A stretch of DNA of 64,000 nt from Candidatus Heimdallarchaeota archaeon (GTDB lineage: Archaea; Asgardarchaeota; Heimdallarchaeia; Heimdallarchaeales; Heimdallarchaeaceae). The notes below the pieces were generated by a model. That model searched no databases, was not told where the DNA came from, and worked only from the letters and a program-made list of their open reading frames with translations. The stretch spans positions 186,001 to 250,000 of the forward strand of contig JAUVXV010000002.1 of NCBI GenBank assembly GCA_030603365.1, in the 5' to 3' direction. Positions 50,909 through 59,168 of the stretch are shown piece after piece; within the stretch, counting starts at the first letter, position 1; each line of letters begins with the position of its first letter. A program made the translations under genes and the position numbers.

Positions 50909-52933
50909 TCATCCTCTCTTCTTCTTCATCTGTTTTACTTCATCTTTCTTTCCTGTTTTCTTCTTCTCTTTGAAATGCTGATTCATTTGCTTTTTATCAG
51001 GCCTTCCACCAGTTCCTCCTCCCATCACACTTGGTCCGCCTGCTCCTGCATGAGTAGGTACTTTCATTGGTTTCTTTTGAATTTCTTCATCGATTGTTTC
51101 AGGATCTAAATCATCTATAGAGAGATCAATATCACCAAGTCCCTGATGAACATAGTAAGTATTGTACAAATCTGCATAGATACCATCAAGTTCCATCAGT
51201 TCATCATGAGAACCAAATTCCATAAGCTTGCCCTGTTCAAGCACTACTATTCTATCTGCATCTTTTATTGTAGAGAGTCTATGCGCAATCACAAATGTTG
51301 TTCTCCCTTTGAAGAGTTCCCTTTGAGCAGCTTGAACAAGAGATTCAGTATAGGCATCCAATCTACTAGTTGCTTCATCTAGAACGAGTATTCTTGGATC
51401 AGCTAGCATAGTTCGAGCTACTGTTATTATTTGTCTTTGTCCAGCTGATAGTTTCTTTCCACCTTCAACTACTATAGTGTCATAACCTTGTGGAAGAGCT
51501 TCAATAAACTCATCAGCATTGATTCTTTTACTTATAGTATATACATCTTCTCTAGTAGCAGAAGGTGCCCCATATAGGATGTTTTCCATTACAGTTCCAT
51601 TGAACAGAAATGGTTCCTGTGTAACTAAACCGATTGCGTTTCTTAACGAAGATTGTTTAACATCACGAATATCCTGTGTTCCTATCTTAATAGAACCTTC
51701 ATTTACATCATAGAATCTTGTCAGAAGGGATGAAAATAGTGTTGTTTTACCAGCTCCTGTATGACCTACACAAGCAACCATTTCTCCAGCCTTAGCTGTG
51801 AATGAAACATCTTTAAGAACATAAGTATCATCAATATAAGCAAAACCTACATTTTCGAAATGAACGTTATCATCTACATCTTGTAGCTCTGCAGCATCAA
51901 TTTTGTCTGCAATTGCGGGTTTGGCTTCAAAAATATCTATGATCCTGTCCATTGCTCCTAAAGCTGATTCTAATTGAGGAAACATCATGGATAACATAAC
52001 CATTGGGAAAAGGAAAGATTGAGATAACTGAATAGCTGTATAAATATCTCCTAACGGAATTCCTGTAGTTTGATTAATCCAACCACTAGCATAGATAATA
52101 GCTATGAACAAACCATAACTTAGAGCTGTCATTGTGGGATGCATAAACATCATCAAGAACCCAAACTGTCTGGAGTATTTGTAGTGTTGATAGTTAAGTT
52201 CTCGTAACTCTGTTGCTAGTTCTTCTTCTCTGTTAAATGATTTAGCTACTGCTATCCCTTCAAGTCCTTCTGCCATCTTTCCTGAAACTACACCAAAAGC
52301 TCTTCTTGTTCTTAGAACTATTTTTCGAGCAAAGAAGCTTAGAATTTTTGCCATTAAGAAAGCAAAAGGAACAGCTGCTAAGGTAATCACTCCAATTATC
52401 CAATTAGTTACCATCAACCAGACAAAAGAACCTACTATTACCAACACTTGAGAAATAACAGCAGCTGATAGCAGTAAACCTGTCGCTAGTTCTCCAGTAT
52501 CTGCAGTTACTCTAGCTGTAATGTTTCCTGATTGTTCATTTTTCAGATAAGACATATCTGAATAACTTAGTTTTTCATAGAGATCATACCTAACCTCGTG
52601 AAGCATTTTTGCATTCATTTTTGCTTGAATTCTTGTGGATAGAGAGTTTAGAATCCAACCGAAAAGTGTCAATGAGAAAAATGTTATAGTCAGTCCTATC
52701 AGCAAACTAGTTGCACTTGGGCTCTCAGTTAGAACATTAATCCCACCACCAATGACTATTGGATTTATGACAGACAAGAGAGAATAGACAATAGAAATAG
52801 ATACAACAAGAATTATAGGTTTAATGTATCTTCGAATATACTTCCATAAGCTACCAAGTAGAATCTTTGTCGACCTTGCTCGATCATACTTATCCTGTTC
52901 AAAAGCTCGACCGGGACCTCTACCGTGACTCAT
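50909..52933 (-). CDS. Heterodimeric ABC exporter subunit, consensus ATP site (B subunit)
   Basis: 674 residues with a six-helix type I exporter membrane domain (about 35-340) and a C-terminal NBD. Walker A GHTGAGKTTLF, Walker B ILVLDEATSRLD with the catalytic Glu, His switch FVIAHRLS. Its signature is LSAGQRQ rather than LSGGQ. A Gly/Lys-rich tail (GGPSVMGGGTGGRPDKK) follows. Its start codon overlaps the stop of the partner subunit by one base (TAATG). The pair has the asymmetry known from LmrCD, BmrCD and TM287/288. In them the subunit with the altered signature completes the degenerate site of its partner. Likely multidrug or lipid efflux; substrate unknown. Confidence 0.92.
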   Translation of the reverse strand: MSHGRGPGRAFEQDKYDRARSTKILLGSLWKYIRRYIKPIILVVSISIVYSLLSVINPIVIGGGINVLTESPSATSLLIGLTITFFSLTLFGWILNSLSTRIQAKMNAKMLHEVRYDLYEKLSYSDMSYLKNEQSGNITARVTADTGELATGLLLSAAVISQVLVIVGSFVWLMVTNWIIGVITLAAVPFAFLMAKILSFFARKIVLRTRRAFGVVSGKMAEGLEGIAVAKSFNREEELATELRELNYQHYKYSRQFGFLMMFMHPTMTALSYGLFIAIIYASGWINQTTGIPLGDIYTAIQLSQSFLFPMVMLSMMFPQLESALGAMDRIIDIFEAKPAIADKIDAAELQDVDDNVHFENVGFAYIDDTYVLKDVSFTAKAGEMVACVGHTGAGKTTLFSSLLTRFYDVNEGSIKIGTQDIRDVKQSSLRNAIGLVTQEPFLFNGTVMENILYGAPSATREDVYTISKRINADEFIEALPQGYDTIVVEGGKKLSAGQRQIITVARTMLADPRILVLDEATSRLDAYTESLVQAAQRELFKGRTTFVIAHRLSTIKDADRIVVLEQGKLMEFGSHDELMELDGIYADLYNTYYVHQGLGDIDLSIDDLDPETIDEEIQKKPMKVPTHAGAGGPSVMGGGTGGRPDKKQMNQHFKEKKKTGKKDEVKQMKKKRG

Positions 52934-54861
52934 TAATCTCTACCTCCTTCAATAGAAACTGTATCTGAACAAACATTATCCCCCTCCGCTATTGGTAAGT
53001 GTTGGCACATAAATTGATAATCAGAGCATCGTTTTATCAGCTCAGAATGGCTACCTATATCTACCACTTCACCTCTTTTCATTAGAATTATCAGATCAGC
53101 TGAAACTAGAGTAGTAAGTCTTTGAGTAACAACAATACTAGTTCTACCTTTCATTAGCTCTTCCATTGCATATCTAAGTCGTAATTCTGTTTTGATATCT
53201 ACTGCACTGGTACTATCATCAAGAAGCAACAAACTTGGGTTAGATAATAACGCTCTCGCAATCGCTATCCTCTGCCTTTGTCCACCAGATAATGTAACAC
53301 CTCTCTCACCAATAGTGGTTTGATTTCCTTCTCGTAAAGAATCTATGAATGGTGCTATTTGTGCTCTTTCTGTAGCAATTCTAATCTCTTCATCAGTTGC
53401 AGTTGGTCTAGCAAAAGCAATGTTTGCTCTGATAGTATCTGAGAATAAGAATATATCTTGTTCAACCATCGTTACATTTGATCTTACGTAACTGGTATGC
53501 ATGTCTTTTATATTTGTACCATCAATTTTGATATCTCCTTCAGATGCGTCATATAATCGTAATAGCAGTTTGAGTATTGTTGATTTTCCAGAACCTGGAC
53601 CACCAATGAGAGCTACTCTTGCACCTGATGGAATTGAGAATGATACATCTCTCAGGACTAATTTCTCAGTTCCTGGATATGCAAAATTCACTTTATCAAA
53701 AACTACAGCTCTATTCCAATCACCTTCGATAGGATTGTTAGGTTGTTTAAGAGGATCTTTGAAATCCATTAAATTCCAAAGCCTAGTTGAGTTTTGTAAA
53801 CCAGCTTGAAGCATTATAAGACGTTGTGGAATCATGAAATTCTGTCTATTGAGATTGAGTAATAATGTTAAGATAGATAGCATTATACCAATGCTATTAT
53901 ACCGACCAATTACAATACTGTAAATTCCAAATGCAAAGGCACCAGCTGTTACAACAATGGAGATTACAGCTGGCCAATAAAATGCACTCAAGTATCCTTC
54001 CCTTCTCATATCATCCGCATATTCCAAACTAACCTCATTGAATTTCGCTATCTCCTTATCATGATTGTCAAAAGATCGAACAACATCTACCCCTTTGAAC
54101 ATTTCTTGTGATATAGAGGAAAGCTTTCCTAAATCAGTTGCAAGCTTTTGTCGAATTGGTCCAACTTTTGCAGCGTAAAACCACGCAATTATCAGATATA
54201 ATAAGAAGGAAAATAAAAATACAACTCCAATTATCCAATCATAAGTCCAAAGTAAAGCAGTTGTAATTATAATAGTCATTACTGAACCCAATAAGTTCCT
54301 AATCGCAGGATGGTAAGCCATTCTGACTTGGTTAATCTCATTCATTCCCATAGAGAGAATGACACCAGAATCATTTACATCAAAGAAAGCCATTGAATGA
54401 TCCTGAACTACTTCATAGAATTCTTGTCTCATATCCCTTTGAACCCTGAAAGAGGTATCAGCCCAGATGTAAATGTTTGCACTAAGAGTTATCCAAGCAA
54501 CTAGTACATAAATAATCATCCAAGTTATCGCTCTAGTAAAATCAGGAGTGAATAAGATTAAGCTACTGCCTTCAGATATGGCAGCAATATCTACAACATT
54601 AACAGAAAGGAATTCAGTTAGTTTTAGTGAAAGATTTCTTTGAATTATTCCTAAAACATCTCCTACCATAGCTAATGTTTTGGTTGTGGAGAAAGTGCTG
54701 ACACCCAGAAGAATCGCTGCTAATAGATATCGTAAAGGAAAGCGAGTGAACCCTGACCAAAACCATTTTCTGGAAGTTTTGTATTTCTTTAAAATCGTAC
54801 TCCGAATGTCTATTCCATAGTTGTTTGTTTTTTGTCCTTTTTCATGTGTAGTTGTTGCCAA
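52933..54861 (-). CDS. Heterodimeric ABC exporter subunit, degenerate ATP site (A subunit)
   Basis: 642 residues if the TTG at 54861 is used. The GAGGAG Shine-Dalgarno sequence is ten bases before it; the TTG at 54870 is only one base away from it. Type I exporter membrane domain (about 40-350) and NBD. Walker A GGPGSGKSTILK and signature LSGGQRQRIAIARAL are normal. Walker B reads LLLLDDSTSAVD, with Asp in place of the catalytic Glu, the hallmark of the degenerate site in heterodimeric exporters. The gene starts within the stop region of the PadR gene, so the three genes are one operon with tight coupling. Confidence 0.92.
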   Translation of the reverse strand: MATTTHEKGQKTNNYGIDIRSTILKKYKTSRKWFWSGFTRFPLRYLLAAILLGVSTFSTTKTLAMVGDVLGIIQRNLSLKLTEFLSVNVVDIAAISEGSSLILFTPDFTRAITWMIIYVLVAWITLSANIYIWADTSFRVQRDMRQEFYEVVQDHSMAFFDVNDSGVILSMGMNEINQVRMAYHPAIRNLLGSVMTIIITTALLWTYDWIIGVVFLFSFLLYLIIAWFYAAKVGPIRQKLATDLGKLSSISQEMFKGVDVVRSFDNHDKEIAKFNEVSLEYADDMRREGYLSAFYWPAVISIVVTAGAFAFGIYSIVIGRYNSIGIMLSILTLLLNLNRQNFMIPQRLIMLQAGLQNSTRLWNLMDFKDPLKQPNNPIEGDWNRAVVFDKVNFAYPGTEKLVLRDVSFSIPSGARVALIGGPGSGKSTILKLLLRLYDASEGDIKIDGTNIKDMHTSYVRSNVTMVEQDIFLFSDTIRANIAFARPTATDEEIRIATERAQIAPFIDSLREGNQTTIGERGVTLSGGQRQRIAIARALLSNPSLLLLDDSTSAVDIKTELRLRYAMEELMKGRTSIVVTQRLTTLVSADLIILMKRGEVVDIGSHSELIKRCSDYQFMCQHLPIAEGDNVCSDTVSIEGGRD

Positions 54862-54862
54862 T

Positions 54863-55825
54863 TTAATCAAGCTCCTCTAATATCTTTGTAATAGATTCTT
54901 TATGTTCTGTTAATTTTGTTTTAAGAAATTCCTTAGCTAAATTCCTCTCTTCCTTGGATTCAATTCTATCTAGATGCTCCTTAATCAGATTAGGATGTCT
55001 GATTAAGAAACGAAAACTTGGTAGAGGTAGACCATATTCCATATACATTCTTGCGAATGGTCTTCCATGATGCTTACCTCGATGAAGCATGATTTCTTTC
55101 CTCATTTCAGGAGGAACATCCTCAGCAAGATTTCTGAAAATTCTTCCAAAGGGATTGAAAATCATTGGTTGCTTCTTCCCTTTCTTGACCATGAAATGTT
55201 TTTCCTCAACGTGGAAAACAAAACCTGTTAAATCTATAAGAGACATTAATGCTTTGGATAAAGTTACCCTACCTACATCTGTTATTTCATAGATTTTCTT
55301 GATTCTATCTCCATCAGAATCTTTTCTAACATACTTAATAAGACCATTTTTCTCTAAAGACTCAATAGTGGGATAAATACCACTTATGTTACTCCAGATG
55401 GTTGTAGTTTTCTTTATTTCTTGAGCAGTTAACTCTAATTCTTCAATGATTTCAGTAAGATATTCAATATCTTTGTTGATTCTAGCTTTGTTTTTTCTAG
55501 TAAGTAAATTTTGAATGTGAGGATTATATTTGAAAATAGAACAGTTTTCTATGTCATTCTCAATAGAATTCTTTTTGGCCTCATATTCTGTACTTTCTTT
55601 ATCCACTGTTGTACTTAATTTATCGAGATCATGAAGAACGCTTAGATGATTATGAATAAAATCAACACCTTTTCTACGATTTTCAAACAGAATATCAGAG
55701 GCTTTAGAACGTATTTCATATGCATGAGAACCATCAGGGGAACGTGCTAAATGAATTAAAATAGCAATTTCACCTAATTTCCTTGCAAGCTTCTCCTCGT
55801 ATTTATTAGTTAAATCTTGAGCCAT
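54863..55825 (-). CDS. PadR-like regulator with inserted helical segment, copy 1
   Basis: 320 residues from the ATG at 55825 (GGTGA upstream); longer in-frame starts are unlikely because they would pass through the operator. PadR features are split. Helices 1-2 are at 17-45 (GEIAILIHLARSPDGSHAYEI). The recognition helix and wing are at 144-182 (SNISGIYPTIESLEKNGLI, then a Lys/Glu wing ending in YEITDVGR). In ordinary PadR proteins these are adjacent; here about 100 residues of helix lie between. A C-terminal helical domain (about 195-320) is conserved in copy 2. PadR proteins such as LmrR repress efflux pumps and release on drug binding. It is the first gene of the exporter operon, and an operator palindrome lies upstream. 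Confidence 0.8.
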   Translation of the reverse strand: MAQDLTNKYEEKLARKLGEIAILIHLARSPDGSHAYEIRSKASDILFENRRKGVDFIHNHLSVLHDLDKLSTTVDKESTEYEAKKNSIENDIENCSIFKYNPHIQNLLTRKNKARINKDIEYLTEIIEELELTAQEIKKTTTIWSNISGIYPTIESLEKNGLIKYVRKDSDGDRIKKIYEITDVGRVTLSKALMSLIDLTGFVFHVEEKHFMVKKGKKQPMIFNPFGRIFRNLAEDVPPEMRKEIMLHRGKHHGRPFARMYMEYGLPLPSFRFLIRHPNLIKEHLDRIESKEERNLAKEFLKTKLTEHKESITKILEELD

Positions 55826-55868: not shown

Positions 55869-55889
55869 ATATTATAATTTTTATAATAT
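55869..55889. promoter_or_regulatory. A/T-only palindrome at the TATA region of the PadR-exporter operon
   Basis: ATATTATAA-TTT-TTATAATAT is a perfect nine-base inverted repeat, 44 bases before the ATG. It contains the TATA box. Being all A/T, it may be partly a matter of composition. Confidence 0.4.
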
Positions 55890-55906
55890 TCTGTTTTTAG
55901 AATATT
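55885..55906. promoter_or_regulatory. Candidate PadR operator 1
   Basis: AATATTC-TGTTTTTA-GAATATT, a perfect seven-base inverted repeat with an eight-base spacer, directly upstream of the putative TATA box of the PadR-exporter operon. The same half-sites and spacing occur at 59123-59144 before the second efflux operon. Confidence 0.65.
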
Positions 55907-56006
55907 AATAAATCTTACTATTTGACAATACGATGAATTAATCATTCTGCACGCATAATGCTTAAAAAAATTAAAAAAAGAGAATAGAAATAATCTTCAA
56001 AGGAGT

Positions 56007-56972
56007 TTATAGCTTCTTCAATAATTTATCAATCATTTTTCTTCGGTCTAACAGCCTTTTCCTTATGAAGGATTTCAGAAAATTCCTATCTTCTTCAGAA
56101 TCAGTAGCATCTAGGTGATCTTCTAGCAGATCTGGATGATTAACAAGAAAGTTCAGTTTAGGATAGGTTATTCCTTGTTCCATCACAGTAAAAATATAAG
56201 GCATTTCTTGGGGCTTATTTCTAAAAGAATCAAGTTTCTTCTTAAATTCGGGGGTTAAATCATCAGTTAGGGTCACAAGAATCTTTCTGAGAGGAAGCAG
56301 CCTAGATGGTAAGATTCCTTCAGATTGATGAATAGTTTTGTTTGTTTCAGTTTCAAAGATGAATGAAGATATATCCAAGAGTGAAGACATAACTCTGGAA
56401 AGTGATTTTCGCCCAATGTCTGTAATTATATAGATTTTCTTCAGCCTACCACCTTCTGGATCTTCTTTCATCATTTCAATTAAACCATTTTTCTCAAGCG
56501 AATCAATTGCGGGATATATCCCTGAAACATTGCTCCAAATAACTGAAGTTTCTATTATATCTATAGTTGAAATCGCTATATCTGCGATCAAATCTCTTGT
56601 GTATTCTATGTCCTCTTTACTAAGTGTGTAGTTTTCTGAAAGAATTTGTTGAAATCGTACATTATGTTTTAAAATGAGAAAATTATCAATTTCTTCTTTT
56701 ATTTCTTTCCTCTTTTCTTTAAAGTCTGAAGAATCAGTATTATATTGCGAAAGGAGTTCATTCAGCTCATTGAGTACTTTTAGATGCTTTTGAATTAAAA
56801 CTGCCTCTTGATTTTTTTTCTCAAAGAAAATTTCTGATGCTTTTTGACGCATTTCATAAGCATGCGAACCTTCTGGAGATTTAGCTAGATGTAAGAGAAT
56901 AGCTACTTCACCTAATTTTCTTATGAATTTTTCCTCATACTTTTCAATTACTGCATCTGAATCAGTACTCAT
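56007..56972 (-). CDS. PadR-like regulator with inserted helical segment, copy 2
   Basis: 321 residues from the ATG at 56972, with AAGGTG five bases upstream (a TTG at 56990 is less likely). It is collinear with copy 1: helices 1-2 at about 21-49 (GEVAILLHLAKSPEGSHAYEM), a charged helical insert at about 50-145 (KRKEIKEEIDNF and others), then SNVSGIYPAIDSLEKNGLIE and a wing ending in YIITDIGRK. The C-terminal domain again ends in a long basic helix (RRKMIDKLLKKL). It is the last gene of the MacB-type operon, 14 bases after the ATPase stop. Likely a repressor sensing a transported compound; ligand unknown. Confidence 0.8.
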   Translation of the reverse strand: MSTDSDAVIEKYEEKFIRKLGEVAILLHLAKSPEGSHAYEMRQKASEIFFEKKNQEAVLIQKHLKVLNELNELLSQYNTDSSDFKEKRKEIKEEIDNFLILKHNVRFQQILSENYTLSKEDIEYTRDLIADIAISTIDIIETSVIWSNVSGIYPAIDSLEKNGLIEMMKEDPEGGRLKKIYIITDIGRKSLSRVMSSLLDISSFIFETETNKTIHQSEGILPSRLLPLRKILVTLTDDLTPEFKKKLDSFRNKPQEMPYIFTVMEQGITYPKLNFLVNHPDLLEDHLDATDSEEDRNFLKSFIRKRLLDRRKMIDKLLKKL

Positions 56973-56986
56973 TTTCACACCTTGTC

Positions 56987-57754
56987 TCAATCATTGTTTC
57001 TGAATGGATTTAGCCTATCTCTGGTAATCTCACCATCTGTAATCATAACATCTCTAGAAGAGAATTCTGCTAGTTTAGGATCGTGAGAAACAGCTAATAT
57101 GGTAGTTCCTTTTTCTTTATTTATTTTCCTAAGAAGTTCAAGAACTTCTCCACCTGTTTGAGAGTCTAGATTTCCTGTTGGTTCATCCGCTAGAACTATA
57201 GGTGGTTCATTGATCAATGCTCTACAAATAGCAACTCGCTGCTTCTGTCCTCCAGAAAGTTCAGTAGGTTTATGATGCATACGGTCTTCTAAACCAGCGA
57301 TTTTCATCAGCTCGTTAGCTCTTGCTTTATCTTCCTTACTTATACCATAAGGTAAGAGAGGTAAGAGAACATTATCACGAGCAGAGAGTGTATCGATTAG
57401 AAAGATATCCTGAAAAACAAATCCTATCTTGTTCTTTCGGATAGTACTTAGCTTACGTTGATTCATCTGTGTAATTTCTGTTCCATCGATGAAAACTTCT
57501 CCACTAGTTGATGATGCCATGCACCCAAGTATTGTGAGGAGAGTACTTTTTCCACTTCCACTTGGACCCATTATTGTGATGAATTCTCCTCTTTCAACTT
57601 TGAAATTTACACCTCGTAAAGCTTGAACTTCAGCTGGAGAACCCTCAAAGAATTTTCTCCACAAATCTTTAATTTCAATAATAAGATCAGTAGAATCTTT
57701 TATTACTTCGCTTGCAATTTTAAGATGTTTCTGTGTTTCGTCTGTACTTACCAT
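56987..57754 (-). CDS. MacB/LolD-type ABC transporter ATPase
   Basis: 255 residues from the ATG at 57754, with AGGTGA five bases upstream; the ATG two codons earlier (57760) is also possible. A leader of about 25 residues precedes the NBD. Walker [16 protein letters not shown], signature [16 protein letters not shown], Walker [14 protein letters not shown], switch His AVSHD. The Q-loop is IGFVFQDIF. It pairs with the FtsX-type permease encoded upstream, whose stop precedes it by fewer than ten bases. Such complexes form mechanotransmitting exporters rather than transporters through the membrane core. Confidence 0.93.
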
Positions 57755-57763
57755 CATAATCAC

Positions 57764-59095
57764 CTAACTTCCTTGTAAAACCTCCATAGGTTTAACAGAA
57801 CTTGCTCTAATTCCAGGATAAAGTCCGCCCAATATCCCTATTCCTACTGCGATGGCTATAGCTGTGAAGAATATTCCTGGAGTTATTACAGCAGAAAATG
57901 GCATTCCACCAGCTGCTGTTGAAGCCATCAATCTTTCAAGACCTTTTATAGACAAGAAGGAGAATATAATTCCAACTAACGATCCGGCTATACCTAGTGT
58001 AATGCTTTCAATTAATACTGAGTAGAGAATGTGACCTTCTTTCCAGCCTGTAGCTTTTAAAATAGCAAATTCTTTAGATCTTCCTTCGACTCCAACTAGT
58101 TGTGCTATTATTACACCCATACTACCAGAAATTACTACTATTATGGTAACAACGCTTATCACTATATCCTGAGTTGCCATTAAATCATCCATTGTTTCAA
58201 GTGCTGAAGCTAAGGATAATGAGGCAAATTTCATTTCTGGATATTGAATTTCCAGGTAAGCTATTAGTTCATCTATAAACTTGTTGACATCTTCTGAATT
58301 ATCAATTGATGTACGTACTGCAACAACATTGGGATTATCGATTCCAAAATGAGTGGGATCTAAACCAAAGGGAGTATAATGAAACATATAGTTCATTGTA
58401 TCGTTTCGCAACAGTTCAAATAGAACATTGTTAGTCACATTAATTGGCACATAGATATCATATCCTGTTACCATTATGGACTGTTGGATTCCACCAACAT
58501 CAGCTGATGTTATACCAACGATTTCTAAATCATAAGTGTAAGTTGTGTTAACCGAAATTGAAAATGTTTTTCCTATGTCAAATACCTCTGAATTATTTTC
58601 AAAGAGTGCATAAGGAATGATACATTCATCTTGATTGAATTCGAAATAACTTGACTCTTCAGTCAATTCCTCCAATTCAGAGTAAATCTCAGTGAAATCA
58701 TCTAAATCTTCTATCCCCCTAATGTTAATCCCCATAGGCGTTCCAAATACTGTCGTACCTAATATATCCGTATAGTTGTTAACCGTAGCTGGTAAAATCT
58801 GCTCAGTTGCTACTGCAGAAATTGCTGAGCTATTTTCAAAATTCATTATAGTGTCTGTGATATTAGCTGGTAACTGAGAGGCATACGTAAAGGGTGTATC
58901 CTTCTCCTGTAACTGAAAAGTTCCAACTAATTCACTAAAAATATCGTTGAAAGTTTCATCCATTCCAGTTGTAAAAGCATTAATTGTAACTTGCATGGTA
59001 ATAGCTATAGTAATACCTGTAATTGCAAGAATGGCAACGATCTTTCTTCTAAACGCGTTTTTAAACGCAAACCATGTAACTTTTCCAATCTTCAT
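57764..59095 (-). CDS. MacB/FtsX-type ABC permease
   Basis: 443 residues. One N-terminal helix (IVAILAITGITIAITMQVTI) is followed by an ectodomain of about 230 residues (MacB periplasmic core) with many Asn/Thr/Glu residues. Three further helices carry the FtsX unit: IVISVVTIIVVISGSMGVI, GIAGSLVGIIFSFLSIKG and FFTAIAIAVGIGILGGLYPG, ending in RASSVKPMEVLQG. The segment KEFAILKATGWKEGHILYSV is the usual coupling helix to the ATPase. It starts with ATG eight bases after a GAGGT Shine-Dalgarno and is first in the operon permease-ATPase-PadR. Confidence 0.9.
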   Translation of the reverse strand: MKIGKVTWFAFKNAFRRKIVAILAITGITIAITMQVTINAFTTGMDETFNDIFSELVGTFQLQEKDTPFTYASQLPANITDTIMNFENSSAISAVATEQILPATVNNYTDILGTTVFGTPMGINIRGIEDLDDFTEIYSELEELTEESSYFEFNQDECIIPYALFENNSEVFDIGKTFSISVNTTYTYDLEIVGITSADVGGIQQSIMVTGYDIYVPINVTNNVLFELLRNDTMNYMFHYTPFGLDPTHFGIDNPNVVAVRTSIDNSEDVNKFIDELIAYLEIQYPEMKFASLSLASALETMDDLMATQDIVISVVTIIVVISGSMGVIIAQLVGVEGRSKEFAILKATGWKEGHILYSVLIESITLGIAGSLVGIIFSFLSIKGLERLMASTAAGGMPFSAVITPGIFFTAIAIAVGIGILGGLYPGIRASSVKPMEVLQGS

Positions 59096-59121
59096 ATAAT
59101 TAACCTCTTGTTCAGAATCGG

Positions 59122-59145
59122 CAATATTCAGATTTCTGAATATTG
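59122..59145. promoter_or_regulatory. Candidate PadR operator 2
   Basis: CAATATTCAGA-TT-TCTGAATATTG, a perfect eleven-base inverted repeat. Its core is AATATTC-N8-GAATATT (59123-59144), identical in half-sites and spacing to operator 1. It lies between the TATA box and the start codon of the permease gene, over the expected transcription start. Confidence 0.75.
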
Positions 59146-59156
59146 GTAAAAATGAA

Positions 59157-59168
59157 CATATATAAAAG
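59157..59168 (-). promoter_or_regulatory. TATA box of the MacB-PadR operon
   Basis: The minus strand reads CTTTTATATATG here. A start 25-27 bases downstream would fall inside operator 2, so repressor binding would block initiation. Confidence 0.5.

Follow-up and report, generated by a model that had tools for sequence, protein, structure and literature searches.

The window, a stretch of 64,000 nucleotides (G000:C15:186001-250000) from the AT-rich genome of a member of the Heimdallarchaeia (Asgard archaea; 34% GC; 3.65 Mb in 17 contigs), carries on its minus strand genes for a permease, an ATPase, PadR2, PadR1 and two ABC half-exporters, in that order. The first operon consists of a MacB/FtsX-type ABC permease of 443 aa (57764..59095), a LolD/MacB-type ABC ATPase (56987..57751) and PadR2 (321 aa; 56007..56972), and the second of PadR1 (320 aa; 54863..55825) followed by ABC exporter half-transporters A (52933..54870) and B (50909..52933). 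The PadR2 and PadR1 genes are separated by ~180 bp, which contain a T-rich stretch that is a possible terminator. A longer padR1 frame starting at 55945, which would place the palindrome described below inside the gene, was rejected because homologs align from the start at 55825.

The two pumps belong to different classes. The permease matches FtsX (PF02687) and MacB_PCD (PF12704), as does a MacB permease. The ATPase (PF00005) scores best against the NCBIfam LolD models, below their cut-offs; it is encoded separately from the permease rather than fused to it as in MacB, and the MacB model PRK10535 scores far below its cut-off. The designation "MacB-type" used in an earlier note on this DNA thus holds for the permease fold and not beyond it. 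The second pump is an exporter heterodimer of the LmrCD or TM287/288 kind, as that note had proposed: both half-transporters combine PF00664 with PF00005, and one of the two ATP sites is degenerate. Read from the sequence, half-transporter A has a degenerate nucleotide-binding domain, with the Walker B motif LLLLDDS and a Q in place of the H-loop His, and half-transporter B has LVLDEA and AHR, with the canonical catalytic Glu and His.

PadR1 and PadR2 are paralogs, 41% identical overall, and both match PF03551 above the curated cut-off (36 and 41.2 bits against 27). The winged helix is not contiguous, however: in the whole proteins the match to the profile (positions 1-75) begins only at position 17 or 30. 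Once ~90 residues are removed, the match extends over positions 1-74 and 2-74, with 48.1 and 41.1 bits. Since the PadR domain is complete when the insert is set aside, the split winged helix is, as judged from profile matches and the structural model, an unusual variant feature and not a ground for exclusion from the PadR family. The insert is helical, occupies residues about 50-142 of PadR1 and PadR2 between helix 2 and the recognition helix, and is found in the whole clade, including its member in Hodarchaeota. AlphaFold (mean pLDDT 77, 26 sequences) modelled a helix at residues 5-31, a long helix at 38-74, the insert helices, a recognition helix at 149-161 and a two-stranded wing at 165-183. 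The top Foldseek matches of the model were LmrR/PadR structures, with a probability of 0.97-0.99 but E ~0.06, and with a low rmsd only over the winged helix-turn-helix (wHTH). With 320-321 aa, the insert and a long C-terminal helical part, the proteins fall outside the size classes of subfamilies PadR-s1 (~180 aa) and PadR-s2 (~110 aa). The identity between the two paralogs is 82% in the recognition helix and 71% in helices 1-2 but falls to 29% for the insert and 32% for the C-terminal part, a pattern that fits proteins reading the same DNA and responding to different signals.

Both promoters carry the palindrome AATATTC-N8-GAATATT, with identical 7-bp arms and 8-bp spacing, exactly where the earlier note had placed it. 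Operator 1 (O-perm; 59123..59144, no strand assigned), which reads AATATTCAGAAATCTGAATATT in gene orientation, can be extended to perfect arms of 11 bases each (CAATATTCAGA-AA-TCTGAATATTG, 59122-59145, read from the sequence). The minus-strand TATA-like box TTTATATA (59159..59166, read from the sequence) has its first base 22 bp upstream of the beginning of the operator, which therefore covers the expected transcription start. Operator 2 (O-padR1; 55885..55906, no strand assigned), AATATTCTAAAAACAGAATATT in gene orientation, is conserved in L056, L065 and L066; its edge is overlapped by the minus-strand TATA-like box TTTATTAA (55905..55912), and GTAAGATTTATTAATATTC is kept in L056 and L065 and nearly so in L066. 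Start sites at both promoters were predicted from the TATA boxes. The two operators differ in their placement relative to TATA and in their 8-bp centres (AGAAATCT vs TAAAAACA), and their affinities may therefore differ.

Inverted repeats of this kind could also act as RNA hairpins in the leader, through attenuation or stability, and the permease copy would indeed fold (-11.6 kcal/mol, z = -2.5). At padR1, however, the palindrome is flanked by TATA and the predicted start and would be missing from the transcript, for which reason we rejected a hairpin as the common mechanism. Moreover, the arms keep their sequence, not just their pairing, across 18 genomes, leaving this explanation very improbable.

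The palindrome is not frequent elsewhere in the genome, as it would have to be to refute the regulon on the terms of the earlier note. In the genome-wide scan that the earlier note had called for, the exact motif occurred only twice in 3.65 Mb, at the two promoters named there, against 0.16 sites expected from the dinucleotide content of the window. The shorter form ATATTC-N8-GAATAT was confined to the same two places genome-wide (1.3 expected on the same basis). When the spacing between the arms was varied from 0 to 30, six sites resulted in total, of which two had the spacing of 8. All these genome-wide tests were pattern searches. Sites with one mismatch numbered seven in the genome, six of them inside reading frames; within the window, 16 loose matches with up to three mismatches were at chance level, so that only exact sites are meaningful. 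The loose matches in the window are what functionless AT-rich repeats, arising by chance or inherited, would give in a genome of this composition. Yet exact sites stand only at the two promoters, and their conservation over the flanks in 18 genomes for practical purposes refutes chance, which we regard as barely conceivable. We do not claim a third regulon member, as matches at two to three mismatches were chance hits or unrelated coding sites. A weak candidate third site is the intergenic AATATTCAGAATACTAAATATC (L041; G000:C1:74009-74030), which has two mismatches and lies ~146 bp before a gene for a predicted secreted protein.

We searched 57 genomes of the genus and its surroundings for this PadR clade. 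Nearly every member of the genus has it, as does one sister genus, and Hodarchaeota have a distant relative of it. The relatives were found with an alignment query; a contig search with PadR2 alone gave none. We examined the promoter upstream of the permease, or of PadR where PadR leads the operon, whenever it was on the contig. All 24 promoters recovered, from 18 genomes of the genus and sister genus, carry the palindrome in exact or diverged form, with the sequence of operator 1 as consensus. Operator columns hold 1.35 bits compared with ~0.36 in the flanks. The operator lies ~22 bp after the first base of TATA in the permease type, a spacing shared by most relatives, or touches TATA in the PadR1 type.

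Several loci depart from this arrangement. At first, four PadR1 promoters (L064, L067, L070 and L019) seemed to lack an operator, an impression that was dropped when the operator was located ~235-240 bp upstream, behind the permease-type TATA spacing; PadR1 thus follows a promoter and operator of the permease type at a distance of ~235 bp. The short frame that follows the operator at these loci is suggestive of a remnant of the permease start left after deletion of permease and ATPase; a shuffle test supported this at two of the four loci only (11 of 300 shuffles as good). Upstream of the permease in L052, the left operator half is tandemly repeated (AATATTCAGAAAACAAG repeated). In L059, L060, L062 and L063 an extra half-site (AATACTC or AATAGTT) overlaps TATA 16 bp upstream of the operator and has the altered bases of the adjoining diverged operator, suggesting a third half-site that may be bound. 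The Hodarchaeota loci L071 and L123 have divergent permease and PadR genes, whose shared promoter contains a perfect 23-bp palindrome, AATATTATTGATTCAATAATATT.

The same word also occurs before a second kind of PadR gene. Three genes for ordinary PadRs of 186-188 aa in relatives, L083 (G016; site 1098-1119), L125 (G002) and L126 (G005), have ATATTC-N8-GAATAT just before the start codon, and the word may therefore be used by a second PadR lineage and more widely in the genus. These proteins differ from PadR1 and PadR2 in having no insert and in their targets. A close ortholog of them is absent from the genome studied here, where the best match is 33% over 92 residues. Their sites, together with the six other PF03551 loci in this genome, lend some substance to the idea that a transcription factor encoded elsewhere binds the palindrome and that PadR1 and PadR2 act at other places. 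That idea is nonetheless improbable: the motif is absent within 150 bp upstream of all six other loci, and the operator tracks the PadR clade, with no promoter copy in G008 and G013, two genomes without a clade member. One exact match in G008 falls in a coding gene. The site also covaries with the recognition helix of the clade, as detailed below. Taken together, the distribution and conservation of the palindrome make it very likely to be the operator of this PadR clade.

The covariation comes from four genomes (G001, G002, G009 and G021) in which the two operons are unlinked. Their permease-side PadRs form one clade (82/100), in which NxTS replaces NxSG at the recognition helix. The corresponding permease-side operators are changed in both arms, to AATACTC..GACTATT or AATAGTT..AACTATT; the other operon keeps an AATATT-type site. 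Such a joint change of operator arms and recognition helix would be expected of a real dyad with a matched reader, and it counts as one case, a single clade of four proteins.

In other relatives the two operons are fused. The order permease-ATPase-PadR-ABC_A-ABC_B was found in ten operons of nine relatives (G004, G005, G007, G010, G011, G015, G016 twice, G017, and G019, where it is cut by the contig end), each with one operator and one PadR; on a short contig, G020 has an operon that begins in the same way. None of the ten showed an inner operator, and the ATPase-PadR junctions that were read leave no room for an inner promoter. The genomes are MAGs of 78-92% completeness, so that in individual cases "one PadR" may reflect a gap in the data. 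In gene trees the single PadR is the sister of PadR2 in some fused operons (93/94 support) and of PadR1 in others (100/98). It is therefore well supported, at the level of sequence, that both pumps can be placed under a permease-type operator and one PadR of either lineage, and this provides the strongest argument that PadR1 and PadR2 may read the same site. Which relatives the window's pump genes group with depends on the gene tree, so PadR and pump genes have changed partners. A clean history of a two-PadR ancestor followed by reciprocal loss is not claimed, as the permease, ABC and PadR trees disagree, which indicates recombination. One operon, L058 (G016:C368), has an ABC_A that groups with G005 and an ABC_B that groups with the G007 type, and may be a product of recombination or an assembly chimera.

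Alternatively, each PadR could regulate its own operon only, with shared half-sites that go back to a common ancestor and specificity that comes from the centres or from the TATA geometry. The differences in the central 8 bp and in TATA spacing are in keeping with this arrangement, and the four genomes in which operators diverged with their regulators demonstrate that insulation does evolve. In the genome studied here, however, the two operators do not differ in their half-sites and the recognition helices are 82% identical, and fused operons with a permease-type operator make do with a single PadR, which may be of either lineage. We therefore consider insulation unlikely at this locus, if less so than a hairpin or a foreign factor, and action of both PadR proteins on both sites rather likely.

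Comparison with characterized PadR systems points to a variation on a known theme. The known PadR operator motif is ATGT-N8-ACAT (PMC5428041, PMC3506622); the inner core here, ATTC-N8-GAAT, has the same spacing and different bases. LmrR-lmrCD of Lactococcus lactis (PadR-s2, PMC5428041) shares with this locus a PadR-family wHTH, a regulator gene adjoining a heterodimeric ABC exporter, a palindromic operator at its own and the pump promoters, and the inner 4-8-4 geometry. It differs in its half-site (ATGT/ACAT versus ATTC/GAAT) and in the size of the regulator, LmrR having about 110-120 aa compared with 320 aa and a split winged helix. Unlike LmrR-lmrCD, the archaeal locus has two paralogous regulators, archaeal TATA promoters and a second, MacB/FtsX-type transporter that would be under the same control. 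Bacillus cereus bcPadR1 (PMC3506622) and Bacillus subtilis PadR (PDB 5x11) have in common with the archaeal proteins the wHTH and autoregulation or operator binding, here predicted from sequence; their inverted repeat is of the ATGT/ACAT type, they contain no inserted segment, and both the half-site and the C-terminal region differ. In regulation of the LmrR-lmrCD type, the repressor occupies its own promoter and that of the pump and drugs release it; by analogy, the two-pump locus could be a variant of this kind of pump control. A search of titles and abstracts in the open literature, directed at PadR proteins of archaea, of Asgard archaea or containing an inserted domain, gave no paper on the operator of such an archaeal PadR.

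Based on these observations, we infer a mechanism of binding, repression, autoregulation, ligand sensing and cross-regulation. A PadR dimer on operator 2, at the TATA edge of padR1, would compete with TBP/TFB, and one on operator 1, over the start site of the permease operon, would compete with polymerase; by blocking their own promoters in this way, both padR genes would be autoregulated. With half-sites and spacing shared by the two operators, and DNA-reading helices that are nearly alike, PadR1 and PadR2 should each be able to bind both operators. The two operons would then constitute one autoregulated regulon of two exporters, opened when small molecules, detected by the two diverged sensor regions, release the PadRs. 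The single regulon proposed in the earlier note gains support from the restriction of the site to the two promoters, its conservation before both operon types and the fusion of the pumps behind one PadR of either type, with cross-binding and silencing as its predicted elements. As a whole, a PadR operator serving one autoregulated two-exporter regulon is the likely explanation of the locus. More tentatively, the pair could form a switch with two sensors and one operator, in which both pumps open only when PadR1 and PadR2 are both released, possibly also as heterodimers.

On this reading, related genomes show the PadR pair either collapsed to one or the other single sensor or split into two insulated pairs with rewritten operators. 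The locus thus offers a natural series for studying how an operator is shared or divided between paralogous regulators, with the operator predicted to single-base detail and with related genomes that display the shared, the reduced and the insulated state. If correct, this would provide a testable specificity rule, in which SG in the recognition helix reads AATATTC and TS reads AATA[C/G]T, as well as repressors and promoters that form a simple set for in vitro work with archaeal TBP/TFB. That two exporters of different classes appear tied to one operator suggests a common substrate or stress.
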